DNA of 64,000 bases from Telopea speciosissima (taxonomy: Eukaryota > Streptophyta > Magnoliopsida > Proteales > Proteaceae). Under the pieces are notes generated by a model that had not been told where the DNA came from, searched no databases, and saw only the letters and a program-made list of their open reading frames with translations. A program made the translations under genes and the position numbers. This document shows, in pieces, positions 880-53,010 of the stretch. The DNA is taken from the NCBI RefSeq assembly GCF_018873765.1, contig NC_057916.1:29363501-29427500 (forward strand). The letters run 5' to 3'. The number at the start of each line of letters is the position of its first letter. The stretch's first letter is position 1.

Positions 880-881
880 GC

Positions 882-3598
882 TTACTGTAATGCAATGGCC
901 GGTCTAGTGTGGGAGAGATAAATTAATTTTCCCACCAACCATTGATATTGTCCCTTATCAATCGGATCGCCATCCTTCTCTTGCAAGCGAGTAGTAACTT
1001 CCAAAGGAATGTCACATGGATGACACCCTAACAAACCAGTATCTGAGAGTAGGTCTAGAACATACTTCCTTTGGGAGAGAATAATGCCTTTGGGAGAACG
1101 GGCAACTTCAATCCCAAGGAAGTATCTGAGTTGTCCTAGATCTTTTATTTCAAATTCTCTTCCCAAGAAAGTCACAACTATGTCATCGACATAGACTATA
1201 AGAAGAGTGACTTTATCCCATAGTTGTCATGGCGTCGCCATGACATCATACCGATGGAAAAGTGGACATATCGTTGGTCGATATGGTATATGGAAGAATA
1301 CCAACCGATATGTCCTCCATGGCGCCGACATGGACTCCATACCACGATATATGGCCATATCGGCCAATATTCTTGTTCAAGTGTAAAAACATTAGTTTTT
1401 TATAATTTTTATTTTTTTAACCTTTTAAAAGATAATGCTTTTATCTTAATGTGTATTGGAGGTGTAACTCAAAAAGTTACACCTGCAATACACATTAACA
1501 AAAAAAATAAAAAAACAATTGACTAATGCATTGCCTACACCCTAAAACCCTAATAGAAATCAAAAAATCGAAAAGACTCTCACTCAATAGAGAAGGAGAG
1601 AGTCGTTAAAAGAAAAACAGGCGAGAGTGTGATACTTCGAACCCCTCCAGGCTCCAGCAGTTCAGCGACTCAAAGTGTCTCTCCTTCGTCGGCTCCAGCA
1701 AGTTCTCCTTAGCTCCGACGAGTTTCCCCAATAGGTAAGTAATTGTTTTTTTTATTTGGTAGTTCTTCTTTTTCTTCAGTTCTTCTTCTCCCAGTCCTCC
1801 AGCAAGAGACAAAGAGGGGAGAGAAAGTCGTCTTCTTTACTTTTGGCGACTTCTCTTCTCTCTTTTTTTTATTTATTTTTTTAATACGTAGCACAGGTCT
1901 CTGCTCTCACAGTCGACATTGGACACACACGCAAAGAGAGACAGAGAGGGAGAGAGTCGACACTCGATAGAGAGGGTTTTTTTTCTTCCTTTGTTCTTCT
2001 TCGTGCCTTGTAGAGTTGCAGGCTTCACTACAATTCCCTCTCTTCTTTCAAACTTCTTCTTTTCTGGTTTCTCTTATCCATCCTCTGTTCTTCTTCAAAT
2101 TGCTGCTGTTTTCCTCCTCTTGTAGGCTGTAGCAGCTTGAGCCATTGAAGATTTTATTTGATTACAGCAATGCCACTCTGTTTTCTTTCTTCTTCCCTTG
2201 CACACAGCCACACACACAGAGAGACAGAGGGAGAGAGTCGAGAGATAGAGATGAGGGGAGGGATGTATTAAAGTCAGTAGTCGGTACTCAGTAGTTCACC
2301 ACTCATTCACACACAGAGAGACAGAGAGGGAGAGAGCAATTTTTTTTGTTTGGTAAAGCAACACCAACAAAAGCAAGCACATATTCACATCAGCAAATTT
2401 TTCATAATTCATATACATTAATACATATTACACTTTCATGAATTAAACCATAGTAGATTAGTAGTACACTTTCCTATTGATTTTTTATGTTATAAGGTAT
2501 ATATTATAGCATACTAATTGACATTAAAAAATAAAGAAAATAAAAAATAAAACATGGTCGACATGATCGCCATGGCAACGCCATGACGGGCGACATGTCG
2601 ATATATCGATTAAACACCCCTCCATCGACTTGGATCCCCGTGACGACGTGACAACTATGCTTTATCCCCATTTCGCTTGATGAACAAGGTGTGATCAGCA
2701 TTACTCTGTTTGTATCCTACAGAGATCATTGCCTTATGGAACCTACCAAACCAAGCTCTAGGAGATTGTTTTAGCCCATATAATGCCCTCTTCTGCAAAC
2801 CTTCCCTTGAGTCTTGTCACAAGAAAAGCCTGGAGGAACCTCCATATACACCTCCTCCTCTAGCTCCCCATGAAGGAATGCATTTTTCACATTCAATTGC
2901 TGCAAATCCCAGCCTAGATTGACAACATCTGACAACAAAACCCAAACAGTGTTCAACTTTGCAACTGGGGCAAACGTCTCTTGATAGTCAATCCCATAGG
3001 TCTGAGTAAAGCCCTTGGCCACAAGTCTGGCCTTATATCTGTCCACTGTTCCATCCGACTTCTGTTTGACAACAAACACCCATTTACAACCCACTGGTTT
3101 CTTGCTCGAAGGAAGAGCCACCAACTCCCACGTCTCATTTTTGGATAAGGCTATCATCTCTTCCATCATGGCGGCTTTCCATTTTGGATCTGCAATTGCC
3201 TTCTGCCATTTTTGAGGAATAGAAACAGAGGAAAGAGAGGACACAAATGCACGATAGGAAGGAGACAAAGCATCATTAGAAACAAAATTGGAGATGGGAT
3301 GTTGGGTGCAAGACCTAATGCCTTTACGGGCAGCAATAGGTAAATTTAGAGTGGGATCCTTACCAAGTGATGTAGCAGAGTCTGGATCTGGATCAAGTTC
3401 TGACGATTGGAGAAGTGGTACAGTAGTGGTAGTCTCAACTTGCTCATTGTGCTTCCAGGTATAGACTTTATCAACAGGAATCTGACTCACAGGCCTACGC
3501 TCCCCTTGAATGGGAAGGGGGGCTGACATTGGAGGTTTTGGAGAAGAAGACTCCCCCTGAATAGGAGCCGGTAGAAGAGCAGACACATCTTCAAACAC
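882..3598 (-). pseudogene. Copia reverse transcriptase, split by a DNA transposon
   Basis: The N-terminal part (2771-3598) has the copia RT entry motif WKAAMMEEMIALSKNETWEL, then KARLVAKGFTQTYGIDYQET and an NAFLHGELEEEVYMEVPPGF segment. The C-terminal part (882-1210) has YVDD at about 1184-1195 and GREFEIKDLGQLRYFLGIEV. The two parts are separated by the transposon at 1219-2659, whose target duplication (GGATAAAG on this strand) fits an uninterrupted reading frame before insertion. In the D-V-K-N-A-F motif the usual aspartate is intact only upstream. A frameshift lies near 2790-2800. This is a relic, not a working enzyme. Confidence 0.9.
1219..2659. mobile_element. TIR DNA transposon inserted in copia RT (hAT- or Mutator-like, non-autonomous)
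   Basis: The two ends are inverted copies: CATAGTTGTCA at 1219 and its complement TGACAACTATG ending at 2659, with similarity extending to about 18 bp. The insert is flanked by CTTTATCC (1211-1218 and 2660-2667). The duplication can also be read as 9 bp (CTTTATCCC), which leaves the superfamily open between hAT and Mutator. Sub-terminal parts are rich in CATGGCGTCGCCATG-type palindromes and ATATCG words. No transposase is recognised, although the interior has pyrimidine-rich and GAGAGA-rich stretches with a repeated CACACAGAGAGACAGAG motif (2208 and 2311). It is about 1.44 kb, typical for a non-autonomous derivative. Confidence 0.8.
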
Positions 3599-3602
3599 TG
3601 GA

Positions 3603-4732
3603 TCATGCTCCCCTGAAGAGGTGGCTAAGAATAATATGCCAGGGATTCATGGAAGACAATGTCCATGGTAACAAATGTACGCCGAGAGGGAGGGTGATAA
3701 GTGATAACACTTGTATCCTTTCTGGGTAGCGGAGTAGCCCAAAAAGATACACCAAATACTCCGAGGATCGAGCTTGCCATGAAGATGATGGTTGCGGGCA
3801 TAGCAAACACAACCAAATATTTTTAGGGGGACCACAAAAGAAGAAGAACCCTGGAGAAGGTCAACAGGGGCACGACCATCAAGTACATGGGTAGGCATGC
3901 GGTTAATGAGTTAGGCAGCAGTGAGGATAGCATCACTCCAATATGGAGAAGGAACCTGCCCTGTAAACATAATTGCCCGAGCCACTGCCAGAAGGTGCCG
4001 ATTTTTTCTTTCAGCCACTCCATTCTGGGCCGGTGTGCCTACACAGCTGGTCTGATGAAGGATGCCATTTTCAGCCAAATAATTTTGGAACTAACCTTCC
4101 ATGTATTACCTTCCATTAACACTCCGCAGAGTTTTTACTGTGGCATTGAATTAGGTCTGAACCATACGATGAAATAGCTGAAAACATCGAAAAACCTCAC
4201 TCTTGTGCTGCATCATATACAACCAAGTGGTCCTAGTAAAACAGTCAATAAAGGAAACAAACCATCTATGGCCAGAAATAGAAACACAACGGGAAGGGCC
4301 CCACACATCAGTATGAACTAAAGCAAAGGGAGAAGAACTTCTTTTATTTAATGGAGAGTAAGTGGAACGAGTCTATTTAGCCAAAACACAGGCTTCACAT
4401 AAAAACTCATCCTTTTTACAATCTTTAACCAACTGAGGAAACAAAAAAGCTAAAGTTCGAAGAGGAGGGTGACCAAACCGACAATGCCATAGATGGAGAT
4501 CCGAAGAAGTGGCTGAATGTAACTGATGAGCCAGTGATGAAGCTGACAGGAGACAAATCTGACCCATGTCGAGTATGTAAAGACCACCATGTACCTTACC
4601 ACCCCCAATCGTGTGCCCTTTCACCAGATCCTGTATACCACAATGAGAGGGAAAGAAGGTTACTTTGCAGTTCAAATCTTTAGTTAGACTACTAATGGAA
4701 AGAAGGTTGGTGGAAAAGGAAGGGGCATGCAA
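3603..4732 (-). pseudogene. Copia gag-pre-integrase and integrase core
   Basis: At 4373-4732 the translation shows LHLWHCRFGHPPLRTLAFLF, the HH part of the zinc-binding pre-integrase region, and ends with CEACVLAK, the CC part. Integrase continues downstream in changing frames. An AQNGVAERKNRHLL-like stretch lies near 3985-4030, followed by NRMPTHVLDGRAPVDLL and FGCVCYARNHH with LGYSATQKGYKCY (3647-3900). Several frameshifts and stops split it. In copia elements this enzyme inserts the cDNA. Here it is only a relic. Confidence 0.88.
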
Positions 4733-4897
4733 AACAAAATTTAATGCAAGGGTCGAAGAGCAATGAATGGAACTCTTTCCATTAATAGGAAAAGGGAACC
4801 ATTAGCTACTCGAACACTATCTTTGCCAGAAGATGGAGAATACTGATGAAACACATGGGAAGAACCAATCATGTGGTTAGTGGCATCGCACCGGAGT

Positions 4898-5995
4898 CTA
4901 TAATCCAAGGAACAGAGACAGTCGATGCACAATGACCACCGACTGGAATACCTGAGGCAAAATGAGAACCAGAAGGGGTAGCAGGTGTAGATGCCGTGGT
5001 AGGTGCAGCAGAAGAGACTTGTAGCATGTGACGGAAAGCCAAGAGTTCATCCTGAGTAAGCCCAATGTCAGTAGAGGGGCCAGCAGCAGCGGTAGCAGAA
5101 GGCTCCGTAAGATTTGCCTTGGGTTTGGACTTCGCACGGCCCCGTTTGGCGTCAAAATCAGTAGGCTTCCCATGTAACTTCCAGCATTGAGCCTTGGTGT
5201 GATACAGTTTGTTGCAGTGTTCACATTTGACAGGCTCCTTGGAGGAGCATTACCACCATCAGTAATGGTAATGGAAGTGGGGCTGGAAATAGTCTGTAGG
5301 GCAGACCTATCAACAATAGGAGTATGTAACATCGCAGCTCGACGAGTCTCTTCTGTATGAACCAAAACGAATGATTGCTCTAGTGTAGGAAAGGGAGAAT
5401 GGCTCAGCACTTTCACTCGAATAGGGTCATACTCCATATTCGGACCTGCCAAGAAGTCGTATACACAGATTTTGTTGACGTGTTTACAGTAGGCAGCAAT
5501 ATCAGCAAGTGTAGAGGGCTGATAGTCGGAGTAATGATCCAATTGCTGCCACAAGCTTTTGAGGGCAGCATAGTACGTAGAAACAGACAACTCCTTCTGA
5601 GTGGTGTCATGGGCCTTCTTACGAATCTCATACACCTGAGCATCATTCCCAATGCGTCCATAAGTCTCCTTGGCAGCACTCCAGATTTGATGGGCTGTCT
5701 CCAGAAGCAAAAAATTGTCGGACAGATCTTGTTGCATAGAGTGGATCAAATAAGACAACACCATAGCATCATGTGACATCCACTTCTCTTGCGGAATACT
5801 AGTTTCAGCCGGCATGGGGTTAGTCCCAAGGATATGGCCAGTAAGGCCTCAACCAGCAATGGTCAAGTAGGTAGTTCGAGACCACTTGAGGTAATTTGTG
5901 CCATCGAGTTTGATAGGAGCAGCCAGGGGAAGAAATTCTGTCCGGGACTGTCCATCAACCCCAGAGGTTGCAGAAGAGGAGTCTGGACCTGTCAT
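4898..5995 (-). pseudogene. Copia gag with CCHC zinc knuckle
   Basis: The start is taken at 5995 (MTGPDSSSATSG). The segment LDGTNYLKWSR, the usual copia gag N-terminal motif, follows at about 5880-5915. An in-frame TGA interrupts the frame near 5850, just before HILGTNP. The body has HQIWSAAKETYGR and a LSVSTYYAALKSLWQQLDHY segment. A CX2CX4HX4C zinc knuckle (C-E-H-C...H...C) lies at about 5175-5225 in another frame. Gag packages element RNA in virus-like particles. The stop and the frameshift make it defective. Confidence 0.85.
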
Positions 5996-8482: not shown

Positions 8483-10628
8483 GGATCGACCTCAAAATGA
8501 ACAGACCCAAAGGAGAAACGGTCCAAGCAACCATATCACCTCTACTAGCCAGCCTCCTAGGGATGCCATGAAGGGAAAACCAAATAAGTCCCAACTGGAT
8601 GGAGGAAACAGTAGGGGGTTCCCAAACACCATCCGAGATAATCTCAGAGACCATGTCAAGTCTGGCTGAACCCAAACTGTAGATAGTTCTGTCGCCTACC
8701 AAATGAAGGAGGATGCCAAGGGGGTGCCAAGGATCAAGCCAAAGTCTGGTGGAAGAACTATCATCAATCAAAGTAGTGATGGATCCATAAGCAAGAGGCT
8801 TAAATTTCAAAAAATTTCTCCAAACCCAAGAAGCATTTGAGATAATGGGAGCTGTCTAGATAGAGTTATTACGAAGAAGCCTAGAGTAGACCCAATCATC
8901 CCAAATACTTTTCTTCTTTGCTGCTATATTCCAAATCAACTTGAGAATAGCTGCCATGGCATCCAGACTCCTTGGTCGCCTTGGACGCCTGGGTGCCATG
9001 GCAGTATCTCCTTGATTTTTTACCCTCTAAAATGCCATGGTCGCCTTCCCACCTTGATAACTATGATCTTTTATGCGCCTTAGGCCCAATCCTCCTTCCT
9101 TTTTGGGGAGGCAAGTAGTAGCCCAAGAGATGGGGTGGAGGAATCTGGAGCAGTCAGATCCTTTCTAGAGGAAGAAGCACATAAGAGGTTCAAGCTTCAC
9201 AATAATTGTCTTAGGAAGACCGAAGATGCCTGACCAATAAATATAGGTTGGCTTGAGTACCGATCTGATCAACTCAAGACGGCCCGCATAGGATAACAAC
9301 TTACCCTTCCAGAGCTGAAGCCTCTTGCGCATGAGGTCAAGCAAGGGTACAATGGTGAGCAGTCAATTTGGAGGGGATCAAAGGCAGCCCTGGATATTTC
9401 ACCAGCAAGTGAGCAAAGAGAGAAATCAGTCAAATCTTTAAGAATAGCCTTAAGCTCCTCAGAGAGCCCAGATAAGAAAACCAGGGACTTGAAGAGGTTA
9501 ATGCGAAGGCCAAACAAAATCTCAAACTGTCTCAAACAGGACATAGAGGATTCAATAGAGAGAGGATCAGCCGTGGAGAACAACGTGAGATCATCAACAA
9601 TGGCAATATTGGAGAGCTTAAGAGCCTTGCATTTAGGGAGGGGGATAATGAGTTGCTGGTCAGTTAAGATTTGGATGCTTTTGGAAAGGACTTCAAGGGC
9701 TAAGGTGAAAATGTAAGTTGAGAGAGGGCAACCCTGGCAGAAGCCACTAGAGGAAGCATAGTATATGGCAGGACTCCCATTAGCATGCGCAAAAAAATGA
9801 GGGGAGGAAATTCAGTGGAAGACCTAGTTGGTAAAGGCAAGGGGGAAAGGCATCTTGTTCAAAACATTAACAATAAATTCCCATCTCAAGAAGTCAAAGG
9901 CTTTATGGAGGCTAATCTTCATGAGGGTGGAAGGGGAAATGTTCTTTCTATCAAAGCCTCTCACGATCTCATGACAGAGGAGGATGTTATCAGAAATGCA
10001 ACGGCCAGGAATGAAAGCTGATTGGTTATCACTGACAAAGGAGTCAACCACCAACTTAAGCCTGTTAGCAAGGACTTTAGTTATTTATTTATAATGCAGG
10101 GTTGCAAAGGGCAATGGGGGGAAATCGGAAATGGAGGAAGCACCCTCTTTCTTGGGAATGAGGCAAAGAAAAGTGTGATTAATCCCTTTGATTTGACTGG
10201 GGTTGAAGAAGAAGCTTTGGAGGGCCCTAATAAGATCCACTTTAATGATATCTCAGCAAGCAGAAAAAAAAAAAAAAAAAACCATACTGAAACCATCGGG
10301 ACATGGAGCTCTATTGGCCTTGTGGGAGAGGACAGCGGAATAGGATTTTTGAATAAGAGAGGATGGCTTGAAGGGAGGCAACAAGGGAGGGGGATGGATT
10401 TATTGAGAAGGATATCTGGAAAGTGAACTGAGGGGAAAATAGAAGGCCCAAAGAGCTGCAAAAAATAGTCCACAATTTCGGAATTAATATCTTCCACTTC
10501 AGTAAGGGTGGAGTCATCGCAACAGAAACAATTGAATTGATATTGGTTCTAGCCTTCAAAGATCTATGAAAATAAGCCGTGTTGGAGTCCCCAAGCTCCA
10601 GCCATTTAATGCGGGATATCTGTCTCAA
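8469..10628 (-). pseudogene. LINE reverse transcriptase, catalytically broken
   Basis: Recognisable blocks are NQSAFIPGRCISDNILLCHE followed by KISLHKAFDFLRWEF (about 9860-10035) and then IVDDLTLFSTADP (about 9560-9605). In plant LINEs the first catalytic motif reads KIDL.KAFD. Here the aspartate is replaced by serine. The second motif FADD has become IVDD. C-terminal thumb-like sequence continues to 8469. A 115-bp MULE-like fragment (8951-9065) interrupts it. Frameshifts separate the blocks at several points. Confidence 0.82.
8951..9065. mobile_element. Fragment of a CATAGTT-ended TIR transposon inside the LINE
   Basis: LINE coding similarity stops at 8950 and resumes at 9066. The foreign 115 bp begin on the minus strand with CATAGTTATCAAGG and contain repeated GCCATGG and GTCGCC words. 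The start resembles the ends of the element at 1219-2659. Only one terminal repeat is seen, and no target duplication, so the other end has been lost. Confidence 0.55.
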
Positions 10629-10640
10629 AAAACTTTCCTC

Positions 10641-11663
10641 TTAAGCAATTAAGGACTGAAGAACCAAATAGAAAGATTTCTCTTCTTCTGCTAAAGAGCC
10701 ATTGTGGATGTCGGCTTGGAGCCTGGTTTGAAAATTAGACAGTTTAGTCTCGCAATCAGAGACAAGGGAAGAAATGTTACCAAAGGTGGAGGAGTTCCAC
10801 TCCTTGAGAAAACTTTTGACACTCCCAAGATTTTGGGCTAAAGAGATGAGGGGGGAGAGGTGGGGTTGGACAGATTTTACCCAAGCTTCAGTGACAATGG
10901 AGAGAAATCGTGGATGGGAAGACCACATGTCAAAGTATTTGAAGGACTTGGGACCAAAGGAAATGTAAGGCTGGATAAGGATGGAGATGGAACTATGGTC
11001 AGTGATCCCTGGAGGGTCAAAGGTAGCATGGGAGGAAGGGAAAGAGGTTAGCCAGGCTTCATTGACCAGAATTTTGTCCAGTTTGCAGGCAATCTTGGCA
11101 GGGCCAATTCTCCTATTATGCCAAGTGAGCTTCAACCATGTCCATCTCGGATAGTTCATCCCAATATTTTCGAGGCATTCATTGAAAGCCTCAACCGAGG
11201 AGTCCAATAGATGATCATCTCCCACATTCTCATGAGTCATGACCAAAACGGATGACATTAAAGTCCCCTCCCAAGACCCAAGGAGAGAAGAGAAATATTG
11301 CAAGGGCTGTCCAAAGAGTTGCTCTTCCAGAGGGCAATTAGATGCATAGACGGCGGTGAAGAGAAAAGGGTGGTTACCATGAGGATCAGAAATTTTGAAA
11401 TGGAGGAATTGGGAAGAGGAGGCCAAGAGATGGAGGTAGATGATGGTGGGGTTCCAAAGGCACCATAGGCGGCCATTAGGGTGGTGAGAGTAGTTTGAAA
11501 TGAAGGACCAAGAGGGAGCAATAGTGTAAGCAATGCTTTGGGCATTGGGATCTTTTATTTTTCGTTTCAATGAGACAACAAAAACCAGCATGGAGAGACT
11601 TAATGTGGGCACAAACATCAGCTTGCTTGGAAGAGGAGTTGAGGCCTTTATTCCATTGAACAC
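10641..11663 (-). pseudogene. LINE endonuclease (AP-endonuclease-like) domain
   Basis: The domain starts around 11673 with WNKGLNSSSKQADV and CLIETKNKR, the N-terminal glutamate motif of the exonuclease-endonuclease-phosphatase fold. It ends with ITDHSSISI, whose D-H pair is part of the active site (about 10990). Endonuclease nicks target DNA to prime reverse transcription. A frameshift lies near 11540. Upstream at 11680-11973 is a proline- and serine-rich stretch of the same element without a recognised domain. Confidence 0.8.
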
Positions 11664-11990
11664 AATGGTTCATTTAAGATCAAGGGGGATGGTGCAGCAA
11701 AATCTTCTCTGAGCCTGACAGAGGAGGGGCGGCATAGTAACAGATCAACGGCGGCAATATTCCCGAAGGGGAGGAGAGGTATTCATAGGACGAGGGGTGA
11801 GGTTGCAGGTGGAAGAGGGCCGATTGCATGAACCTGAAGGAGGAGGGGCAAGTTAAATGGGGAGAAGACTGGAGAGCCATGGTTAAAGTGCTGGGGACGG
11901 GCGGAGGGGATGACTGGGGGTACGGGTTTGAATCCACCGAGAGAGAGAGGCTGGGCTTTAGGGGATGGTCCAACAGGGAGGGTCAAATAG

Positions 11991-23300: not shown

Positions 23301-25724
23301 GCAAATAGTGTTCAAGCAGATAATTCACACATCGTAATATAAGATTTGAAAATTACGCAAATTCATTTTGTGGGATAATATTCTTTAGTTTATCAATTAA
23401 TCTTCATCCCTAACAAAGAAAGTCCTGGCTAGAAAAATTCAAGACCTACAAGAACATAAAACAGAGTCACCAGATAAATTTTGGACAGGACAGCATTGAC
23501 AGAAAACATTTAAGCGCTAAGCCCAGTTTGGGCACAGTTGTTTTAGTTATTAAAACCGATGACTAGGTAAGCCAATGGATGTGTAAAACAAGAGCGTGAA
23601 TCAATGAAGCCCAATATCCAAAACAAGATGTAGCATTATACCTCTGTAAACAACCTTGAGAATGTAGCATGTGTATCCACAACAGAATTATTATTAAAAA
23701 AAAAAAGTGATTCTACACCGGCTGGTACATAATTCAGTTAAATCTGGTAGAAGATACACTTAAAAAAAATTTGACATCTTCATTCAACAAATATACTATG
23801 CATGGGAAAACTCAGAGATCATAACAAGGCAAGATTAGGGTACTCACGGTCAGAGTAAGGTGTTATGCAAGCTTCCATAGACACACCCCACATAGCATCT
23901 GGATCATCGTCGGATCTACACAGAGGAGGTTGGGAACCAGGCTCTCTCTCCATGTAACAGTCATTTGTCAGTGGTTTAACCCAAATGACAGTTTGGTTTT
24001 TCTTGGCCGCAATTTTCCAACACATTCGTTCAACAAGGGCACTCATCTCTCTCCATATTCTTAGATCTTCCTCATCCTGTGCATACGCTTCTGGAGATGA
24101 GTAGGCAAAATAGCCTCCTGGTCTAAGCAACCTATCCAGCTCAAGCAGAAGGATCCCATCCCTTTGAAGCCAGTCAATTCTACACCGAGAACAGTGAGCC
24201 AGTTCAAAGGATCTGCTTGGGTAAGGAAGCCTCTTTGTCCCTAAGACACCGAGATATGCAGGAATTCCTCTCTCCAGAGCAAATTGGATCTGATTTTGGT
24301 GCACATCATTGGGTGCTAAAGACATTGCTATGATATCAGATGAAAGAAGATAGGCTCCAAAACTTGCAACTCCACATCCCACATCAAGCACTGTGCGGAT
24401 CCTTCCCTCATTGTTCAAAACATTGTTTGAAAAGTTGAGCATCTGCAAAGACAAACCAGAAGCAAGATGATTCCTACATTTGTGCAGTCCAAGACACTTT
24501 TTAAAGAAAATAAATCACAAATGAAACGAAAAAAGAGATCTCAAAAACTGCAAAATTAACCAAATAAGCACGCAATAAAAATGCTGTTAAAAGGAAAAAT
24601 ATACTGCATGAGATTAGTACACCATAGTTCAAATTCATGATTGCAGCAGCAGTTGAGAAAAGCAATTAAAATAAAAGTACACTGCCAAACAGCCATGCAA
24701 CTGGACCAAAGAAAGGACTTGTTTTCTTTTTTCCTTGCTTCAGAATACAATTAAAGAGTAAACTGTCTTACATTTGCAATGGAAGCAATATATTTGTCAG
24801 CTCCATAATGAAAATGTGTGCCACCTCCAGGAAAGACAATCTTTTCACCTTTGACAACCATCCAGTTCTGGTCAGACTTTTCATGTGCAAGATGAGTATG
24901 AGGAATGTTTGCTTTCCATACTTCATCCCTGCTTCTTGGCCACTTGATTGGGATCTGAAATAGGAAAGCATGACAGATCAATTGGCATTGTATGAAATAC
25001 CAAAAAAAAAAAGGAATACAACATACAAGGAAGAAAATTGCTTCAGTTTTATTATCTAGCACAACTCAGATTTTGAATAATCTTAAATCACAATGAAGCA
25101 TGATTCAACCTTGTAGCCTATCGGTGGAGGAATCAAGCAATTGAAGCGCCTTTCAGCTGGAGGGCAATGTCTTTCGTAGTGCTCCATCAAAGTCAAATCC
25201 AGCTTCAATCTCATCTGGTATATCAGATGCCTGTCTAGGCAGGGAATTAACTCTGAATGTCGATCATCACAAACCTTCAAGGAAGAAATTGAAGTACAGA
25301 ATAGTGTTAACAATCAAAATACAAGTTGAAAACCTAGCATATGAAATTAATGTTGAGGCCTTAGGGGTCGCGATGGCAATTAAATGACGGTACAGGTTCA
25401 GAGGGGAAAAAAAGATAAATAGGGGAGGGGAAATCTTACAGGGAAGCTCTTTGCCACTACGTCATCCTCCTTGTCTTCCAGCCCAAACTTGGAGGAAGAT
25501 TCCTCTTGCTTGTTTCCAAGATCAGCATCTTCGTCACCACCCAAATATGATGAACCCAATTTTCTTAAGGATTTACTTCCATATTCTATAGCTGATGCAC
25601 CATGATGCATTCGGGAACCAAAAAAAGATCCATAATAAACAAATATAAAAACAAGAAACACTGTGACACAACACAAGGCAGTGATCAATCGCTTCTTTTG
25701 GACTCCATCAGTTCTTCCCCTCAT
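20320..25724 (-). CDS. Probable methyltransferase PMT8/PMT9-like (DUF248, Golgi), complete
   Basis: Seven coding exons on the minus strand: 25440-25724, 25110-25274, 24772-24954, 23848-24442, 22637-22749, 22311-22531 and 20320-20641. All have GT-AG borders with consistent phases and give 627 residues, close to the roughly 620 of Arabidopsis PMT8. The protein opens MRGRTDGVQKKRLI, followed by a single type II membrane anchor (residues about 13-33) and an acidic stem. The luminal domain begins VCDDRHSELIPCLDR and has the SAM-binding motif VLDVGCGVASFGAYL in exon 4. It also has HCSRCRIDWLQRDG, LDRLLRPGGYFAYSSP and a second half-domain with LRNLMDMKANFGSFAAALKD, and ends WLTSESLRDTE. PMT proteins are Golgi membrane enzymes implicated in pectin homogalacturonan methylation. 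The exact substrate of this clade is unproven. The gene looks intact. Intron 6 (20642-22310) carries transposon pieces. Confidence 0.95.
21134..21483. mobile_element. MITE in PMT intron 6
   Basis: The left end ACTATGCATAGTGAAGCG and the complement of the right end (ACTATCCTAATGAAGCG) match over roughly 30 bp with small gaps, giving imperfect terminal inverted repeats on a 350-bp AT-rich insert. The target duplication was not resolved. Confidence 0.5.
21488..22021 (-). mobile_element. RTE-type LINE 3' fragment in PMT intron 6
   Basis: The + strand begins with (CAA)n then CTCAGCCTAATCCCAATTCA and GGGGTCTGCTGCATGGATCC, the reverse of a common plant RTE 3' end. On the minus strand the translation has LRWCGHIQRRPRDALIRRSD followed by a KGRPKM segment, the C-terminal tail of RTE reverse transcriptases. 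It is truncated at the 5' side. Confidence 0.75.
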
Positions 25725-32306: not shown

Positions 32307-35300
32307 TCACTTGTGCAAGATACTCTTCTTTGGCATCTTTGGTTTCTTTTTAGTCTGGTTCTGCCAAGAGAGTAATGGGACATGAAGCCAGTCAGTTGAG
32401 ATACAAAAAGCCAGTTAATAAGTAGGAAACGAAAAAAATAAAAAATAAAAAAATAAAGTAGTGCACATGTTGGAATCTACCTTTTGCCTCTCCAGAGCTT
32501 CATAATCAGTCCTCTCCTTCCAGGTGCTCTTACGAAGTTTGATTGGGCGGTTTCCGACATATTTACCTGCAATGGTTGAGTCATACTAAAGAATGAGAAG
32601 GGAGCATAGCTAATATTGTTATTAAATTTGGTTGAGTTGACAGTCCAACTTTCCAATGCCAATTATAAGGCTACCATATGATCATAAATATTAAGCATAA
32701 AACTTCAACGAAGAATTGTATTCCAAGTAGAAATATTACTCACCATTAATTTCTTTCAATGCCGCTGCAAGGTCTGAAGGTTTGGCAAAGCTAACAAATC
32801 CATAACCTCGGGTTTTGCCAGTCCGCTTATCTCTAACCACCTGCGATTGTCAGAATCATATGTGGATGTAGTTCTCAATAAATGAGAGAGTAAAAAACTC
32901 ATAAAAACCGAGAGATATTAAAAAGAAAAACCATGTCCAAAGCAAAGTGCCAATGCATTATGGACATACTAATTTCATATGAAAGCTAGATAGAAAGCAA
33001 ATAATGTATAGAAGAGCACAAGACAATGCAACTCTGCCGGAGTTGGAGAAAGAAATAGAAACCAACAACCATGCAGCTTCACCTTCCCCTCCCCCCACCC
33101 CAACAAAAAAAAAGGTCTAGAATAGAAAGATTTTTATTCAGCAACTAAACATTGAATAAAAAATTATAGAAGGGCATGCTGGTAACCACGCCCAGCCAAA
33201 CAAAACAAGAACTGGCCCAAACCACCAAGAGAAATCCTTAAAAATCTTGGCTCAGAGGTGATGATGCTCCCAAAACAAGTGCAACTGAACTGGAAACTTG
33301 AGGAAGATGTACCCTCAAATTCAGCCAAAGGTATGCGCACCAAAAGTACAGGAGTGGAAGATGTTAAGAATAAACCTGTCACTAACTATGATATACTCCT
33401 AAACATGAAAGTAATACGAATAGACAAGCAGCTTTATTGTTAACCATTTTAAGTACCAGAGAAGTGGACCATAAAGCCTACAAGCTGACATTAGCTCCTC
33501 TCCCTCTCCTACCCACTCTCAATAAATAAATAAAAAATCATAAATAGATTTATTAGATAAGGAAATAGAACATAAATGAGAAATAACAGAGAGGACCATG
33601 AGCCAAGAGAAATAACAAAAGAACTAGGTAGCAGATTAATTCCAGAGTAACAGTAAATTGGAGGGTGAAAGTATGGGAATAAACGAGGAACAGGGCTGGA
33701 ATATAGTTTGCGTTCAAATCTAAACCATGTAAGTAGTATGGATGAAATGGCAGACAACCCCAAGCATATAGTAATATTTCATACAAGAACCCCAAAATGA
33801 GGCTGAGAATAAAAAAGTAGGGGTTGACTAGTAACAACTGCTAGAAAGACTGAAGACATATGGAACAAAGAAATAGGGCGCAGTTAAGCATATAGGATAT
33901 GACAAGGACTAATGTATTTCACAAGTATGCAAAAGAATGAATGTAGTATTAAATCTTGTATCTCTGAATAGATTTAAAACAACTTTGTGTTATACATTTG
34001 GAAAGCTAATCAAGCATAAATTAATATTCAACTGCTACTATCAAGGTTTCAGACCTGCCTAATATATTAGGACATCCCAAACTTCATAACTATGCAAATC
34101 AGCCACGGAAATACTTACATGATGTTTGACTGGAACAAGTCCTTGTTTCTTCAACATACTTTCATGTTTCACACCTCGCATACTATACACACAATAAGAT
34201 ATTCAACAAATGTGTAGAGAGGCCTTGCTTAAGTACAAAGAATTAAGAAAAACAAGCATCTGAAAGGATATACTACAAGCTTACATCCTCCCAACAAAAT
34301 TCATTGCAAATGACATGAGATTACGGGAATCAAAGCTTAACAGAGAATTACCCTTGCCATGTTAAAGGAAGGAAATCTTGAAAATGCTTTTGAAAGAACC
34401 TCATCATTCACTTCATTACCAAGATCCCCACAAAACAAGCGAAAATCATCTGCAAAATGCCTTGTGCATTAGTGAAATTTAGGGATCCATCAATCAAGAG
34501 AAAAGAGACATTAATAAAAAATAAATTATTAGAAGGAAATGCATAATGAAGTCAAACTAGAATCTTAAAGGGTCTTAATGATTATAATGGTAAGTTGGTA
34601 ATTAAATTAATAAATAGAAAGTGGAACTTAAAAGACCGGTTCAAACTGCTTAAGCAAATGAGCTCTGTATCAAAAAGTGTAGAACTGCATGAGGTAAAAT
34701 TTAAAATAACATTTTAGTGAGTATTATATTGTCTGATCCAATTTTCTGCCTTGCTGGATGTGGGAACTACAAGTCTTTAGTTAATTATTAATAATTATAT
34801 CCTTAGTGACTGAATCTTTCTCATAGGGGTGACACTCCTGCTCTCAATCCTTGAGTTCACACACTAAAAGTAAGAATGCACTCTAAAGAAAGTCAGTCTA
34901 TGGGTTGAAAGTATTGTTATAGCAAACACCAACAAAATCACGAAAAGAAACAAGAATCAAGCAAAAGAACACAGAGATATAACATGGTTCACACACCAGT
35001 ATGGTGTGATACATCCACGGGCGAAGACGAAGATGATTCACTATGTAAAACGGAGAAAAATTACAATGGAAACTCTCAAGAACACCCAAATCACTGCTGC
35101 TGCTCTCTCAGAAACCCTAGAACAAAAACCCCAAAATCTTCCTCTCTCTTTACAATAAAGCGGGTATGGAACATAAATACTCCTCCAGGATCCGGGTCGA
35201 TCCATCGGGTCAGGTCGATCCGTACCGCGGGTCATTCTTCGAAACGGGTCCAAGAATTCGAGACATACATAACAAGTATGCTTTGAGTAAAATGAAAATT

Positions 35301-39811: not shown

Positions 39812-40059
39812 TTGTTGAGTAAGGAAGAGTGAGAAGTAAGATTTGGGGGTTTTTTGTGCTAGGGTTTATGTAAAGAGTTCTTGCTGATCTTTGGGTGTTC
39901 TTGAGAGATCTCCACTGTATTTTCTTCCATTACATTGTGAATCATCTTCAGCTTCGCCCATGGACGTAGCACATCATATTGGTATGTGAACCACATTAAA
40001 TCTCTGTGTCATCTTTGCTTTGTTTTGTTTCTTCGTGTTTTTTGGTGTTTGCATTAACA
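39812..40059 (+). mobile_element. Truncated LTR of the 34915/52230 family
   Basis: It shares TTCTTGAGAGATCTCCA, TTCGCCCATGGACGTA and GTGTGAACCAC with the LTR at 52230 and ends GCATTAACA at 40059. The 5' half seen in the other copies is missing, and no target duplication was found. Confidence 0.65.
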
Positions 40060-40622
40060 GAAAATACCAAAAGAATATTAGTACAATGGGCCATATGATG
40101 GAGTTAGACCACCAAATTTGACATTTGGCTAATCTAGAGTGGACCCTACCTATCCATAAGACTGGAACTTTCTGAATCATGTGCCACATTGCACTAATCA
40201 GGTTGGCCACCTTTTCACTTCAATATATATTATCTGTATTTGACTTATGGTGCAATTGCATTTAATTTAATGAAGAAAAGGGTAAATGAGAACAGCACTC
40301 TTACTTTTATTCTTTTATGAACTGCATTTTCAAAAGAATTATTGGGCTAGCTGGCTGCAGATTATTGCTTCTTTCAATTGCGACTCCCCTTCTGCTTAAG
40401 AGAGCTAGTTTATGTTTGTTCATGATCTTTTTAATTTGATTGATAATATTTTATGGATGAAACTTTGAAAATTATATCATTTGAAAAATGGAATGGTATG
40501 AGGAATTTAAGTGTGTATGAGAAAACTTCATCCACCTGTTTTAATATTTACTGGTCTTTGTTTTTATTTTTACAGTTTTGGTACTCTTTGCTGCATCTTC
40601 ACTCTAATCATTTTGTGGAAAG
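40060..40622 (+). other. Intron or upstream sequence of the STK19-like pseudogene
   Basis: No coding similarity is seen. The stretch ends in an AG acceptor (GTGGAAAG) at 40622. Confidence 0.35.
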
Positions 40623-43226: not shown

Positions 43227-44899
43227 CGGAAATTTACACGTACCTCCCCTGAGGTATCAACTAATTACCGATTCACCCATGATGTTTCACTATTTACAGG
43301 TACCTCCCCTACTTTCCAAAATATTGAATAAGTTAATCCAGTCCGTTAGTTGTTCCGTTAGTTGCGAAAGGTAAGAGTATTTTAGACATTCTATGACCAA
43401 TATACCCTTGATAGGGTAGAATGACATTATTGTCCTCTTCTTCATTCTTCTTCATCGTCTTCCATTATTTCCCTTATTTCTGCTCTTGAAGAACTCTAGC
43501 GGCAGAAAACCATCCATGGCCACACCGTCATAGTTGATTTGATTTCACTTTCTTTTTATATTTTCCCCCTATTTTCCCACTACCAAGATTTCAGATGTAA
43601 ATGGTTGTAAAACAGAAAACTAGAAAGTAATCCATCATCTCATCTGATTCCCTCACATTCACAGGAGCCGTTCTTTCCTATTCGGTAATTAGGAGCGAGT
43701 AAAACCAGGGTCTCTCTCTCTCTCTCTCCCCTTGTGCGCTCGAGGCTACTGATTACCCACCACTAAAGAACGGAAGAAACAAAGAGGAGCCTTTTCACTG
43801 TTTAGATCGGACAGCCTCAGCTATGCTTCCCACCGTCCAATCCTTCTCTCTTTTATTCGCTTTCCTTTTCGTCGTCTCTCTGGCTTTCACTTCCGAGTCT
43901 GATCAGAAGGTAATGTTTCAGACTTCACCAACTCTTCCTGAACCCTAATTATCTCACTCTCTGAGGAAATTCGTGTCATGGGTCGTGGATCTTTTTATTC
44001 GATTTGGTATTTCCGCACTTGCTTATCCATTACATTAGATCTGCAAGGTCGTTTATGTGGAGAGGCTTGAATTTCTGCCATCTTTGGTGATTTCTGGGCA
44101 TACTCTATTGTTCGGCTGGGTTCATACAATCTAGAGTTAGTGCTCTTTGTCGCTGGTTCAAGATTGCAGCTTGGGGACACTTCTTGGTATTTGGAGCTTC
44201 TGATGTAGTTCTTTGTGTTTTGGACTAATATGAGGTCTTAGTCAGGGAATTGAACTCAGTGGTGTTGTTTGATTAGGGAATGGGGATCTATGGTTTGATT
44301 TCTTAGGTTGGAAAGGGAGGATTATGGTTTTATTTCTTAGGTTGGGAAATTCATTGTGGATCCATTACAGAATGATAATTTGTTTGGGTTAAATGGCGTT
44401 GGATTCATTTTATGGATTATTTCTCAGATCATTATCTGCATTTTCTGTTGCTGATCGTGTAATGAGTACTTTATAGCGCGAGTGGGTTTGCAGAGTGTAT
44501 ATCAGCGTCACAGCCGGTGTTCTTCCATTTTTAAATAGATCTATACTAAAGCCAAGAAAACCCCTTAAAATTGAATACAACCATGGCAATATTTCTGCAA
44601 TGAAGGAAGATGACAGTGCTAGATCAGATTAGGAGTGTGAGAACCAGGAAGAAGAAGAAGATGATGACGATGAGGAAGAATGAAGAAGAGGACAATAATG
44701 TCTATCTACCCTAGCAAGGGTATATTGGTCATAAAATATCTAAAATACTCTTACCGTTTGCAATTAACGAAACAACTAACGGACTGGATTAACTTATTCA
44801 ATATTTTGGAAAGTAGGGGAGGTACGTGTAAATAGTGAAACATCATGAGTGAATCGGTAATTAGTCAATACCTCAGGGAGAGGTACGTGTAAATTTCCC
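43227..44899. mobile_element. Pack-MULE 1: long-TIR Mutator-like element carrying a host exon
   Basis: Two arms of about 240 bp are inverted copies (43227-43466 and 44655-44899). Each starts GGAAATTTACACGTACCT, then CCTGAGGTAT, TAATTACCGATTCA, GATGTTTCACTATTTACA and CCAATATACCC, with roughly 90 percent identity by eye. The interior contains a host-like 5' UTR, a first exon and the start of an intron instead of a transposase. The flanks are TTTTTTTCT and TTCTTTTTT. They are T-rich, so a true 9-bp duplication cannot be confirmed. It begins 20 bp after the stop of the STK19-like pseudogene, in what would be its 3' UTR. Confidence 0.85.
43823..43909 (+). pseudogene. Captured first exon resembling a TM9SF/TMN protein
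   Basis: 29 codons start at the ATG at 43823: MLPTVQSFSLLFAFLFVVSL, then AFTSESDQK, followed by a donor (AAG|GTAATG). The hydrophobic core is a signal peptide. The SESDQK ending at a phase 0 intron resembles the first exon of plant TM9SF1/TMN1 proteins (SESDHK-YQ). A TC-rich leader (about 43716-43733) and plausible 5' UTR precede it. No later exon lies inside the element, so only exon 1 was captured. The family assignment is tentative, as one exon of 29 residues is little evidence. Confidence 0.5.
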
Positions 44900-46136
44900 T
44901 TCTTTTTTTTTTTTTTGGGGGGGGGGGGTGGTTTGTTTCCTGATGACTGCCAGAAATCATTTATCTGGATTCAGTTGGACAGTTAACAAAAAATTCAGGA
45001 AGCATGTAGCAGTAGAAACTAATGCCAGATGATGGGGTCTACATCTGGAACAGCATTTTGTATTTTGTCTTTTGTCTTTTGTCTTCTACATATTTATCTG
45101 TTCATTTATTTGTTGTCTGGTGTTTGAGCAGCTTTATCATACATGCTCCTATAATGAGAAAATAAAATATCACTAGTGTGGTCACCACAATGTGACTGTG
45201 GGATGCTAAAACTTAAAAAAGAAAATTTTACAAGTGTGCAATGTAAAAACTATGTTCTTGCAGAGACCAAGCATCAGTTGACTCTTGCATTAAGTTATCT
45301 TTGTTTCCTTTTTCTCCCAATAGTTTGAACCTTGTCTTTATTCTTTTATTGAATTTTTTTTTATTAGTAGCCATGAAATATGTTGAAGAGGATATGAATG
45401 TGGGAAAATTATATGCAAGCCTCAAAAAATGGGGCTTATCAGACTCTAGCCAACTGTGAGAAGTGTTAACAGGGGCATGGTCCAAATGATAGCCATCAGC
45501 AGAACATTAAAAGCTTTAGTCATTTGGTTATTGTTTCATTTCTTCTGTTTTCAGCAGATGAGTATGGAGAAGTGACCTTATGGTTGTGGTATCAGTTTGG
45601 TTCTGGCCACTAAACCAATTGAGTTACTGGCTTTAAGAAATCTCCAAAGCAGGTCTGACTATTTTTTCCCCCTTCATCTAACTAGATCAGTGATGGTGGG
45701 GGGATTGAGGTTTTTTAATTAGAGCTATTAATAGATCAAATCTTGATTCTGCTCCCACTAGAATTCAATACAATAAAGATGGATTAAGGTTTACCCTGAT
45801 GCTATTCAATTATTATCTGCTCTAATTGTAATAACCTTGTTTATAATTAGACCAAATATAGATATACCAGTACTATTATACCTTTTTCTTTGGGTGGGAG
45901 AGGGGGGGGGGGGAGGGGTTGTAAATTTCTCAGTGCATTAAAATGGGCCTGTTAAAGGTAAAAGTGGTTTGGGTTTAATCAAATAGAGTACTTCACTAAA
46001 CTGTGTTGGACTAACAGCAGTTGCTATAAGTGCGTTAGGATGTAAATGGGCCTAGTAAAGCTAAAGCTGGTTTTAACTAGATTTAATTATTGTCACACTT
46101 TATTTTTCATATATTTATTTAAGTAATTTTTTTTCA
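44900..46136. other. Spacer between the two long-TIR elements
   Basis: Contains T/G-runs (44904-44927) and a poly(G) run at 45901-45915. A short stretch at 45555 resembling TM9SF exon 2 was rejected. No feature with clear ends is visible. Confidence 0.4.
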
Positions 46137-46275
46137 GGGAGTGTAGCATACACCAGCACACTCATGTGTCTATACCTCTCCTCCTCAAAACAAGGGGGTA
46201 GAGCCGTAGAGGTGTCTTTTCACATGAGGAGGAGAGAGATAGACTCATGGGAATGGTGGCGTAGGCCACACTCCC
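46137..46275. mobile_element. Fold-back MITE A
   Basis: The left arm GGGAGTGTAGCATACACCAG and the inverted right arm GGGAGTGTGGCCTACGCCAC match over about 50 bp, continuing with CTCTCCTCCTC. The element is nearly all stem, 139 bp. The target duplication was not resolved. Confidence 0.75.
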
Positions 46276-46311
46276 GGATAGAGTTTTTTTCCATTTATTT
46301 AATTAATTTAT

Positions 46312-47837
46312 GGGAAATTTACACATACCACCCCTGAGGTTTGACGAAAAGATATTTTCACCCCCCAGTTTTGGAAAATTTGGCGTACCCCCCTAAGGTT
46401 TCAAATGGTAACAAATAAGTTCATTCCGTCAGTTCATGACTAACATTGTTAAAAATTAGACTTGAATTGACGGAATTGCCCTTCTAAGAAAACCCAAAAA
46501 AAAAAAAAGGTGAATGGACAAAATTACCCTTACAAAGGAAAAAAAAAAAAAAAACCTGCAACTCATTGGGGAAGATGAGTTGCAGGTTTCAAAACCATAA
46601 GGGTTTTTCTTTTGTTTCTGTAATTATGATTAAGAGAAAAAAAAGGAGTGGGTTTTAAACTGGAAAACCCTAGGCAATTGGGTTTCAAATAAGAGTGGAA
46701 ATGCGTGAGAAACTTGCTATTCCGGAAGCAGAATGGTCACGGGCCATTGGAGTGTTCTGTGGCTTGAACCACATAGAAGAGGCTGTTGTTCTTACTACTT
46801 GGAACAGAATGGAAATATAGGTGATAATCTTTTGGATCTAAATCTGTTCTCCCAAGTAGGATCGATTTCCTGAAAGTGAATCCAGGACATTGCTTCGATT
46901 CCCCTTCGAAGATCCCCGTAGTTGGAAAATCATGCGCCCCAAAACTAAAATCAAAACTAAAACTCTATACCCACTAGATCTGGATTAGACATGGGAAAAA
47001 TAACCAGAAAAACTCATGAATTATTTTGAAAGAACATTTAACTTAAACATAGTTTTTTAATAAAGTACACACACTCGGATAAAGAAGTGAAAATATTTAG
47101 AATGGAGAAAATGTTGACCTTGAACACCGGAGTGGTAGACGTCGAGGCCGAACCAGTAGGCATAGCCATTGATAGGAGTGAGGTTGTAGACATTGAGATA
47201 TACAGGGACAGATCCGGTTTTCCTTTTCTCAGAGAGGACTCTTCTGAACATTTTTCAATTCCTCTGAGAATAATATTCGAGCAGCGAATAAGAAGAGAGA
47301 GAGAGAGAACCCTGTGAGTATAGCTCAGCAAACAAAACTAGAATCATTCCATGGACTCACGCTCGAGCTCTTCTTCTTCTTTGTACTATTCCGACGCCAT
47401 TGCTTTGTATGGGCATCAAAGGAAAGACAGGGAGTGATGGTGAACAAATCAGAGTTTAGGGTTAGGGTTTGAGGGTGGAGCAGAGAGGGATGGTGAAGAT
47501 GGTGATGATTCGGTTTAAGCAAAGAGGTTGAAGAGGAGTGATTGAGTGGCAAACGTTTTAACGAATCAATGGGGTGCTGGATGGTTGCAACTCATCTTCC
47601 CCAATCGATTTTGGGGACGATGAGTTGTAGGTTTTGGTTTTTTTTTTTTTTTTGGTTCTTCTCAGAAGGGCAATTCCGTCAGTTCAAGTCTAATTTTTAA
47701 CAATGTTAATCATGAACTGACGGAATGGGCTTATTTATTACCGTTTGCAAACCTCAAGGGGGTATGCAAAATTTCCAAAACTGGGGGATGAAAATATCCT
47801 TTCATCAAACCTCAGGGGTGGTATGTGTAAATTTTCC
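46312..47837. mobile_element. Pack-MULE 2: long-TIR Mutator-like element with captured DeSI exon
   Basis: The ends GGGAAATTTACACATACCAC and, inverted, GGAAAATTTACACATACCAC open arms of about 250-280 bp (46312-46590 and 47585-47837). A perfect 9-bp target duplication TTAATTTAT flanks it (46303-46311 and 47838-47846), which is the Mutator signature. Within each arm lie smaller palindromes: CCGTCAGTTCA with its complement, and GCAACTCATC with its complement. There is no transposase. The interior carries a host exon on the minus strand. It is 1526 bp in all. Confidence 0.92.
47119..47251 (-). pseudogene. Captured first exon of a DeSI-like PPPDE protease gene
   Basis: It starts at the ATG at 47251 and runs 44 codons plus one base to a donor CAAG|GTCAAC. 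The product has VPVYLNVYNLTPINGYAYWF followed by GLDVYHSGVQ. This is the start of the PPPDE (DeSI-like) fold, and the histidine in YHSGV is the family's catalytic His. The usual VYDLTP has become VYNLTP. The rest of the protease, including the catalytic cysteine, is absent. DeSI proteins are cysteine peptidases of SUMO/ubiquitin-like removal. Flanking DNA inside the element is probably captured intron and 5' UTR. Confidence 0.82.
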
Positions 47838-47999
47838 TTAATTTATTAATGTTTTTTTTTTTCCTGTGGTATTTTTTCCATGATATAGAAACCAAATAAC
47901 GGAAGTGAGATTATCTTGTATCTGGTTCCACTTTGAGCTTGTAATGAACAAGTCTGAGCTTCGTAATTGTATATATATCCTTAGAGTTAAAAAAAAAAA

Positions 48000-48143
48000 C
48001 TGTGTCCGAGAGTGTGGCTTAGGTCAACACTATAATGAGTGTATCTCTCGCCTCCCAAATGAAAAGACACCTATGCCCCCTTATTTTGAGGCGGAGAGAG
48101 ATAGACACGTGGGAGTGCTGGCATAGCCCACACTCCCGCACAG
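48000..48143. mobile_element. Fold-back MITE B, related to A
   Basis: The arms CTGTGTCCGAGAGTGTGG and, inverted, CTGTGCGGGAGTGTGGGC lead into TATCTCTC and CGCCTCC on both sides. Core words match MITE A. The length is 144 bp. Confidence 0.72.
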
Positions 48144-49205
48144 AAAACTACTTCCCATATCTTTAATCTTGCTTGGTGAAACTCTTACATCATCCACCAA
48201 ATTTTTAAAAGAGAAGTGAAAGAAAAATATAAAATGTTTTCTTGTCATTAGAAACTAAAGTTTTCAAACATCCAAATGTTAAAGTTATTTTTCAATAAAA
48301 TGTGACTTTCCTTTATCCCTTTTCTTGACCATTAATACAGTGTAAGAGTAGGATAATGCATCAAGTGGCATTTGGAGAAGCTAAATGCCACACAAGGATA
48401 ATGATGCCCTCTCTAATATCACAGGGAAATCCCATTCAAGATAACTTGTGGGAGTGGGACCTCACTAGCTATATCTTACCACCATAAAGCATCCTTAACT
48501 AGTAAAATTTAAGCCAGACACGCTCAGTCTAAAAATATTGTATATTTTTCAGTCTCTTACTAATATATTTTATTTTTTACCATTAAAAAAAACTAGTAAA
48601 ATTTAAGGCCACAATTTACTATGGGCAAAAGTTTCATGCACACGTGAATAGTCATGCCCCACTCCCCCCTCTCAATAGGGGTTGAAATAATCAAATGCTC
48701 TTTATTTGATGTATCGTAACCCTTCCTTTATCTTATGCGGCCGTACATGAAAACCGTCCCATGTACTATTAATAAAACTTCAAAAGCACAATTTTTTTTT
48801 TTATTTTTTGGTAAACAAATCATAATTCAATCATGCAAAAATCTACTATGGCTATTAAAGAGTAAGCCCTTTGTACATGAGAAAGCTTAGTATCATATTT
48901 CTAAAGGATTATCTGAGATTGTTTTGTTCATCTGCATTTGGAATGCATTCTAGGTTGATAATGCATTTCAAGAAACTGTATCAAACACAGGCTTAGTCTT
49001 CCATCCATGATCTTAAACATCTGGGCACCTCACCCGTTGAAGATCTCAACTTTGAATCATGGTTAAAGAGAATGAACTACACACAGCTATGCTTTGAATT
49101 TTGCAAGTTTTTGGAATCAGACTGCACTTTTTGAAATCAAAGCTGCGTTTATTATGTTTTTTTGAAATCATACCAAATGAAACCTAAACTTTTACAAAAT
49201 CTTAG
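48144..49205. other. Intergenic spacer with LINE tail remnants
   Basis: A T-run at 48790-48802 followed by TATTTTTTGGTAAACAAATC resembles a LINE 3' end on the minus strand. A TGCATTTGGAATGCATTC motif at about 48930-48955 recurs at 60850-60880 in the NAC gene intron. No gene is seen. Confidence 0.4.
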
Positions 49206-52229: not shown

Positions 52230-52711
52230 TGTTATGTGTGTCTTGAACTCTTGTACCCGTTTTGAAGAATGACCCGCTCCAATATTTTTTGTGGCGATCT
52301 GAATGGAACTTTTTTTGAGATCTGTGATGGTAGCAGAGGGCTTGGGCCTCGGAGCCCATCACTAATCTCGATGGGGGGGGTGGGGGTGAAGCCCCCGCGG
52401 TACGGTTCGATCCGACCCGATGGATCTTATCAATCCAATGGAGGAGTATGTATATTCTTTAGTCGCTTTGTTGTAAAGGGAGTGAGATTTGGGGTTTTTC
52501 GATTTAGGGTTTCTGGGAGAGAGAAGCAGCGTTGTTATTGGGTGTTCTTGAGAGATCTCCATTGTAACTTTCTTTGATTTACATAGTGAAACATCTTCAC
52601 CTTCGCCCGTGGACGTAACACACCATACTAGTGTGTGAACCACGTTAAACCTTTGTGTCATCTTCCTTGTTTTCATTTTTGTTCGTGTTTTGTTTAGTGT
52701 TTGTTCTAACA
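52230..52711 (+). mobile_element. Solo LTR, 482 bp
   Basis: It begins TGTTATGTGTGTCTTG and ends TTGTTCTAACA. It is flanked by AAAAA on both sides (52225-52229 and 52712-52716), which fits a 5-bp duplication but lies next to an A-run. It shares TTCGCCCGTGGACGTA and GTGTGAACCACGTT with the LTRs at 34915 and 39812. It is a + strand copy without internal domains. Confidence 0.8.
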
Positions 52712-53010
52712 AAAAAGGGTACAAGATTAACGTCTAGACATATCCAGATGAATACAAAAACAAAGATGAGGAATGCCCCAAAATCCAAAAATTAGAACTG
52801 AAACAGAAATCTAGGCCTACAAAGGGCATCTCCACGCAACTCGTCCCTAGAAGAAAACCCGATTTTAGCAGTATTCTTAGCAAGGTAGTCCACAATAGGA
52901 TTTGCCTCTCTATAGCAATGAGTAATATAATCTTCCATGTAATAAGGAACAATAAGATCTCAAGAACTACCAGTCTTGCCTCATGAACCAAGGAATTGTA
53001 CCAACTTAGG
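52712..53010 (-). mobile_element. LINE fragment (RNase H end)
   Basis: The minus strand has NPIVDYLAKNTAKIG-like text at about 52850-52900 in one frame, the end of the LINE RNase H-like domain, followed by RDELRGDALCRP. It belongs to the family of 49206-49830. Confidence 0.6.

Follow-up and report, generated by a model that had tools for sequence, protein, structure and literature searches.

Two transposon-like elements lie 1.4 kb apart in a 64,000-nucleotide stretch of the Telopea speciosissima genome (hereafter the window; C1:29363501-29427500 of an 822.9-Mb genome with chromosome-sized contigs). We read these elements, E1 (43228-44898) and E2 (46312-47837), as independent non-autonomous Pack-MULEs, i.e. 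Mutator-like elements (MULEs) that carry host gene fragments between terminal inverted repeats (TIRs). Their inner TIRs differ, their interiors would have been captured by template switching, and a cassette in E2 that joins fragments of a HEMA and a DeSI gene would probably have come from another MULE. We put the probability of this reading at about 0.88. The elements belong to a known kind; the possible new detail is the route of the cassette from one MULE to another.

Two long-TIR elements with chimaeric interiors

Both elements are bounded by long inverted arms (Table 1). The arms of E1 are 220/236 identical, which places E1 among the long-TIR elements expected of MULEs. Those of E2 are 185/206 identical (46304-46508 against 47641-47845) and, at about 200 bp, lie within the MULE range of about 100-500 bp. 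E2 is also flanked by a perfect 9-bp repeat, TTAATTTAT, a length within the 9-11 bp of Mutator-like target-site duplications. An initial interpretation made from the letters of the stretch (the sequence-only reading) had described two elements with inverted arms at this spacing, alike at their outermost ends and unlike further in. Computed alignment agrees: E1 and E2 are alike in the outermost part of their ends only (93% over 28 bp and 87% over 39 bp), with unlike inner arms. No transposase is encoded inside either element, the longest ATG/GTG/TTG frame being 97 amino acids, as expected of Pack-MULEs.

E1 joins pieces from three genes. The largest runs from the leader through exon 1 into the first part of intron 1 of a gene on C5, to which it is 80% identical gapped and 89.9% ungapped (792 columns); ungapped identity to a paralogous gene on C4 is 75.6%. 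The downstream readings at both genes were recognised by eye, without a profile search, as what we take to be TM9SF/EMP70. The signal-peptide-like exon 1, which had been recognised beforehand with its leader and donor site, reads MLPTVQSFSLLFAFLFVVSLAFTSESDQK in E1 and MLPTVRSFSLLFVFFLVVSLAFASESDHK in the C5 gene. Two short pieces follow, for which the names B-box-like and BAHD-like are our assignments by eye: 43 bp of a zinc-finger-like coding exon, running opposite in strand to the reading of its source gene on C2, and 96 bp of acyltransferase-like genes on C6, a piece that also adjoins TIR-like sequence at a further locus (L033). The genome search with the E1 interior gave 15 matches (13/13 candidates scored); it contained no complete second copy of that interior and no source for 43471-43616.

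The interior of E2 is likewise composite. A HEMA (glutamyl-tRNA reductase) internal-exon fragment, absent from the sequence-only reading as was the 9-bp duplication, scores 26.2 bits against Pfam GlutR_N, slightly under the cut-off of 27, and 9.6e-15 by phmmer against chloroplastic GluTR1 (4n7r). It is 119/130 (91.5%) identical to an open exon at C5:5808134, from which it differs by Cys/Trp and by Tyr/stop. The Cys/Trp difference sits within the motif STCNR, whose cysteine in glutamyl-tRNA reductase we take to be catalytic. On the opposite strand lies a fragment of a DeSI (PPPDE/C97 peptidase) gene comprising 91 bp upstream of the ATG, exon 1 with its donor (the DeSI-like first exon already described), intron 1 and an exon-2 remnant. 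Its Pfam Peptidase_C97 match (E 0.0016) is under the cut-off; the corresponding gene at C7:11970453 is followed by readings of further exons.

Gene fragments thus lie between TIRs with parental-type genes outside, as proposed from the letters alone. Capture had been staked there on computed inversion of the arms and on intact source genes. The arms are inverted, and each main interior is about 90% identical to a gene elsewhere, intron included. These genes were read in part, and the E1 and E2 arms are absent from the stretches examined (9.9 kb around the TM9SF-type match, 3.5 kb around the DeSI gene and 1.5 kb at the HEMA locus). The further statements that both captured pieces are first exons, and that both elements took leader plus exon 1, apply to the largest pieces alone: the HEMA piece is an internal exon, the DeSI piece extends to a remnant of exon 2, and E1 holds its two short pieces; the HEMA, B-box-type and BAHD-type pieces are not seen to reach a start codon.

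Other repeats carry the same TM9SF region. Five repeats of ~3-4 kb (L025-L029, on C5, C3, C7, C6 and C7) contain the end of exon 1 and intron 1 at 91-93% identity to the C5 gene. The four examined have ends like GGGCGTGTTTGGTTGCG, and two have matching 3-bp flanks (TTA or TAA), features that we presume to be PIF/Harbinger-like. Because these repeats carry it too, transposons of two kinds may have captured the TM9SF gene region. An older exon-1 fragment at C8:33530500 (L030) is 87.6% identical to E1 over 452 columns and has ACG in place of the start codon; no EMP70-like reading was seen by eye downstream of it.

Table 1. Coordinates of the features of E1 and E2 (window positions) and of three relatives of E2 (genome positions)
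Feature	Position	Strand	Remarks
E1 left TIR arm	43228..43462	+	220/236 identical, inverted, to 44663-44898
E1 right TIR arm	44663..44898	-	inverted partner of 43228-43462
TM9SF/EMP70-type piece: leader, exon 1, start of intron 1	43617..44480	+	match C5:64262625-64263458 (L024)
Captured exon 1 of E1, 29 codons, signal-peptide-like	43823..43909	+	donor GT at 43910
43-bp piece of B-box zinc-finger-like coding exon (C2)	44476..44518	-	42/43 identical to L034
96-bp piece of BAHD acyltransferase-like genes (C6)	44517..44612	+	L032 86/96, L019 83/96
Target-site duplication, left copy TTAATTTAT	46303..46311	.	identical to 47838-47846
E2 left TIR arm	46312..46508	+	inverted match to right arm
E2 resident subterminal sequence	46560..46689	+	93-98% to L036, L037, L039, L043, L045 over 106-125 bp
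HEMA internal-exon fragment	46694..46823	+	Pfam, phmmer, genome match (L065)
DeSI gene fragment	46828..47342	-	90.3% ungapped, 505 columns, to C7:11970453 (L038)
DeSI exon 1	47251..47119	-	ATG at 47251, donor GT at 47118
E2 resident subterminal sequence	47343..47589	+	92-95% to L036, L037 (201/247 bp), L043, L045; no match in C4 element
E2 right TIR arm	47641..47837	-	inverted match to left arm
Target-site duplication, right copy TTAATTTAT	47838..47846	.	identical to 46303-46311
L036	C7:50875187		both ends recognised, right arm much diverged, cassette present
L037	C7:50833916		right end unrecognised, cassette present
L039	C5:69360030		cassette partial

The E2-type family and the HEMA-DeSI cassette

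Each TIR type is present at tens of places in the genome, judged from the best 40 of 610 candidates for the E1 arm and the best 40 of 197 for the E2 type. The left arm of E1 has 39 further match rows, at 78-90% identity for non-self matches and 87% for the best-scoring one. For the E2 type we compared flanking repeats in 21 elements with both ends recognised, i.e. 20 E2-type elements including E2 and one element on C4 described below. This set derives from 23 rows with both ends, from which L035 (E2 itself), L048 (the same element as L046) and L007 (E1-type) were dropped and to which the C4 element was added; elements such as L037, L051, L058, L059 and L064, in which an end was not recognised, fall outside it. 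Perfect 9-bp repeats flank 15 of the 21. When left and right flanks were re-paired in 10,000 trials, the mean was 0.9 perfect repeats and the maximum 6.

The interiors of 22 E2-type elements fall into about 11 largely different classes by sharing of a large interior part, or into 6 groups if every BLAST hit (shared ~70-130 bp) is allowed to link them. These interiors, of about 11 types, document a MULE family that carries gene pieces in a Proteaceae genome. Among ten chosen translations from 10 E2-type elements, Pfam placed Mlo, Homeodomain and LRR above the curated cut-offs and DnaJ, Ole e 1 and Mediator 16 below them, and gave no family to four. Pfam also gave no family to a reading in L058 that we take by eye to be AHL-like. 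Ten captured pieces were recognised, partly by eye, in E1, E2 and their relatives. Four reach the start codon (TM9SF, DeSI, MLO-like and LRR-like), and it was not seen to be reached in the HEMA, B-box-type, BAHD-type, homeobox, DnaJ-like and Ole e 1-like pieces; a bias towards 5' ends is not shown among these ten.

Besides E2, three E2-type elements carry the HEMA-DeSI cassette, one of them in part (L036, L037 and L039), whilst L042-L045 match E2 on both sides with another middle and no cassette. The cassette also occurs in a further MULE, the C4 element (C4:17155829-17160695), which has a perfect 9-bp duplication of its own (TTTAATTTC). This element is split by a later, long-terminal-repeat-like insertion, near whose ends lie direct repeats of 304 bp that are 95% alike, and all but ~540 bp of its middle was examined. 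Its TIRs are ~78% like those of E2, against 92-96% for the cassette, and it is unlike most of the E2 resident subterminal sequence, with a 20-24 bp motif in common. E2, L036, L037, L039 and the C4 element share one HEMA/DeSI junction, which thus occurs in two TIR subfamilies.

The extents of the cassette are nested. HEMA sequence spans 168 bp in the C4 element and 130 bp in the match shared by the four E2-type carriers, a difference of 38 bp. A 29-bp stretch holding the acceptor region and first exon-2 codons of DeSI is present in the DeSI gene and the C4 element and absent from E2, L036, L037 and L039. Because the C4 element keeps both the extra HEMA sequence and the 29-bp stretch, the E2-type cassette reads as a trimmed version of a C4-like one, and the cargo of E2 is probably second-hand, having come from a MULE with TIRs of a different subfamily or from the ancestor of that MULE. 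We infer the direction of transfer as from a C4-like MULE to E2-type elements. At the position of the right-hand join of E2-type cassettes, the C4 element and the cassette-free L043 both read AACCAGA.

The origin that we propose is as follows. A break or gap inside a MULE would be repaired with synthesis switching to unrelated templates, whereby stretches of host genes would be copied between the MULE arms. Transposase supplied in trans could then support later transposition and yield further copies. The HEMA-DeSI cassette would have been assembled once, and would have entered E2-type elements by a template switch that replaced about 550 bp of the recipient interior. The specific course, with the fusion arising under the TIRs of one subfamily, passing in trimmed form into the other by microhomology-guided template switching and then spreading there, has, in our estimate, about even odds. 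If it is right, MULEs share cargo with each other, and a captured piece can therefore persist beyond the TIR family by which it was taken up. Here a single genome offers the parental genes, a carrier of the donor type, recipients that lack the cassette and its daughter copies, from which the route of the cassette can be read, and the question whether MULEs pass cargo to each other becomes testable. A limited literature search found no prior description of such a relay.

Several points weigh against parts of this account. No exact 8-11 bp repeat flanks E1 over 15 x 16 end positions; T-tract near-matches at its T-rich flanks were discarded as duplication evidence. Because the duplication of E1 is unreadable, its superfamily placement depends on its arms and the shared ends, and an E1-type relative (L007) has a flanking repeat of 4/9 only. 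In the E2 count, the six imperfect repeats match at 8, 7, 7, 7, 6 and 2 of 9 positions (the last in L044), and those of L039 and L042, counted among the 15 perfect, are simply runs of A. Source matches of ~90% mean that the exact donor could in each case be a lost paralogue. For the cassette, the DeSI 5' end is ~5 bp longer in the C4 element, too short to weigh, and a third, lost carrier could have been the source for both C4 and E2. Finally, no transposase could be tied to either TIR type when positions were compared by eye with MULE-domain hits, a partial test (best 150 of 828 candidates, one locus inspected). The locus inspected as a candidate autonomous partner, a MULE-domain hit at C8:21036120, was discarded, as it sits outside the elements.

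Age, function and adjacency

Arm divergence, as Kimura distance on gapped alignments, is 0.067 for E1 and 0.094 for E2, and ranges from 0.036 to 0.27 across the 22 E2-type elements, E2 included. By these values the two insertions are not recent; they give no absolute date. The E2 interior is 94% identical to its nearest copies, and the nearest copy of the cassette lies at a distance of 0.048 in its DeSI part. The suggestion that the pair marks one active capture family finds no backing in these identities, or in those of the E1 arm matches, among the best-scoring candidates; nor does the idea of a single family survive the difference between the inner arms and the many places at which each TIR type recurs. 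Current activity and function of E1 and E2 are unsupported.

Retention of ATG, leader and donor in both elements could be taken to mean that the captured 5' ends provide other sequence with promoters or first exons. We consider this improbable. Compared with the gene, 7 differences over 40 codons of the HEMA piece alter the amino acid (one gives a stop) and 3 are silent; over 28 codons of the TM9SF exon the counts are 6 and 3. These are small numbers of unknown polarity, and the differences look unconstrained. In addition, DeSI intron 1 has lost its original acceptor in E2.

The spacing of the elements raises another alternative, namely one composite event: either a larger element would have E1 and E2 as its ends, or local hopping would have produced both together. 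The similar outermost 28 bp would fit this, and a model published for Pack-TYPE elements invokes the fusion of insertions that lie next to each other (PMC8903248). A further close pair of long-TIR MULEs likewise lends it something: at L066 (C8:~21036836-21040016) two such elements, at 1837-3313 and ~3441-5017, stand 127 bp apart. Against it, E1 and E2 each have a full pair of arms with unlike inner parts, E2 has its own duplication, and the flanks examined around its relatives L036 and L037 contain no match to E1. We regard a composite event as slightly less probable still than a role for the captured 5' ends. Since the inner arms differ and both TIR types recur at tens of places, the adjacency needs no special cause. 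Close pairs were otherwise not seen: L036-L064 (29 loci) show no end motif beyond the expected pair in flanks of only ~0.1-1.5 kb, and the count is a lower bound, as E1 in the window escaped the end-motif scan. Of six E1-type relatives compared with the E2 arm, one (L003) matches 123 bp of it at 72%, which may point to remote kinship between the two TIR families.

Least probable of all is that no capture took place and the interiors are remnants of local genes invaded by TIRs, or duplications by other means: both main pieces do keep leader, exon 1 and donor in natural order, but the interiors combine pieces of genes from different chromosomes, with ends inside introns and exons, the E2 cassette recurs in three further carriers (one partial), and no contiguous host gene was seen across an E1 or E2 arm boundary.

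Some neighbouring features were also recorded. A small foldback-like repeat flanks E2 in two copies (46134-46290 and 47993-48144; 84% over 58 bp), and the pair at L066 adjoins a broken FAR1/MULE-domain reading. Elsewhere in the window, readings recognised by eye resemble pieces of a copia-type retrotransposon polyprotein (406-5848, minus strand), an endonuclease/reverse transcriptase of the long interspersed nuclear element type (9269-11669, minus strand) and an exon of a plant PMT-type methyltransferase (23819-24514, minus strand). A dispersed repeat of ~230-320 bp is present in three copies, 78-79% alike (34914-35231, 39831-40064 and 52394-52716).

Comparison with known capture systems

Published descriptions give Pack-MULEs TIRs of 100-500 bp that contain promoters, and duplications of 9-11 bp (PMC3310237). 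E1 and E2 resemble the Pack-MULEs of rice, maize and tomato in being non-autonomous, with long TIRs, in E2 a duplication of this length, and pieces from at least one locus (PMC3310237, PMC4858842, PMC5217110); in relatives of rice, about 5-10% of MULE-derived putative genes drew on at least two parental genes (PMC4858842). They differ from the Pack-MULEs of rice and maize, for which a strong GC preference is reported, in that the GC content of the captured pieces (0.39-0.45) exceeds that of the window (0.38) by a modest margin at most; GC is reported to vary less in dicots (PMC3310237). Acquisition has been proposed to proceed by invasion of an ectopic sequence with repair or conversion (PMC4858842), and PMC8277862 discusses gap filling together with microhomology-associated template switching.

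Maize Mu elements are a classic case of similar TIRs that enclose unrelated interiors (PMC3276141). The present elements are like Mu, including Mu13, in having unrelated interiors, and Mu13 likewise has a TIR of about 220 bp and, as E2 does, a 9-bp duplication; Mu13 is active (PMC3276141), whereas the members described here are diverged and no transposase was linked to them. They are also like Pack-TYPE elements of other superfamilies, which hold gene pieces between TIRs, some from several loci. The Pack-TYPE model of acquisition is one of re-mobilised neighbouring insertions (PMC8903248), whereas the E2 cassette looks like the replacement of an internal stretch.

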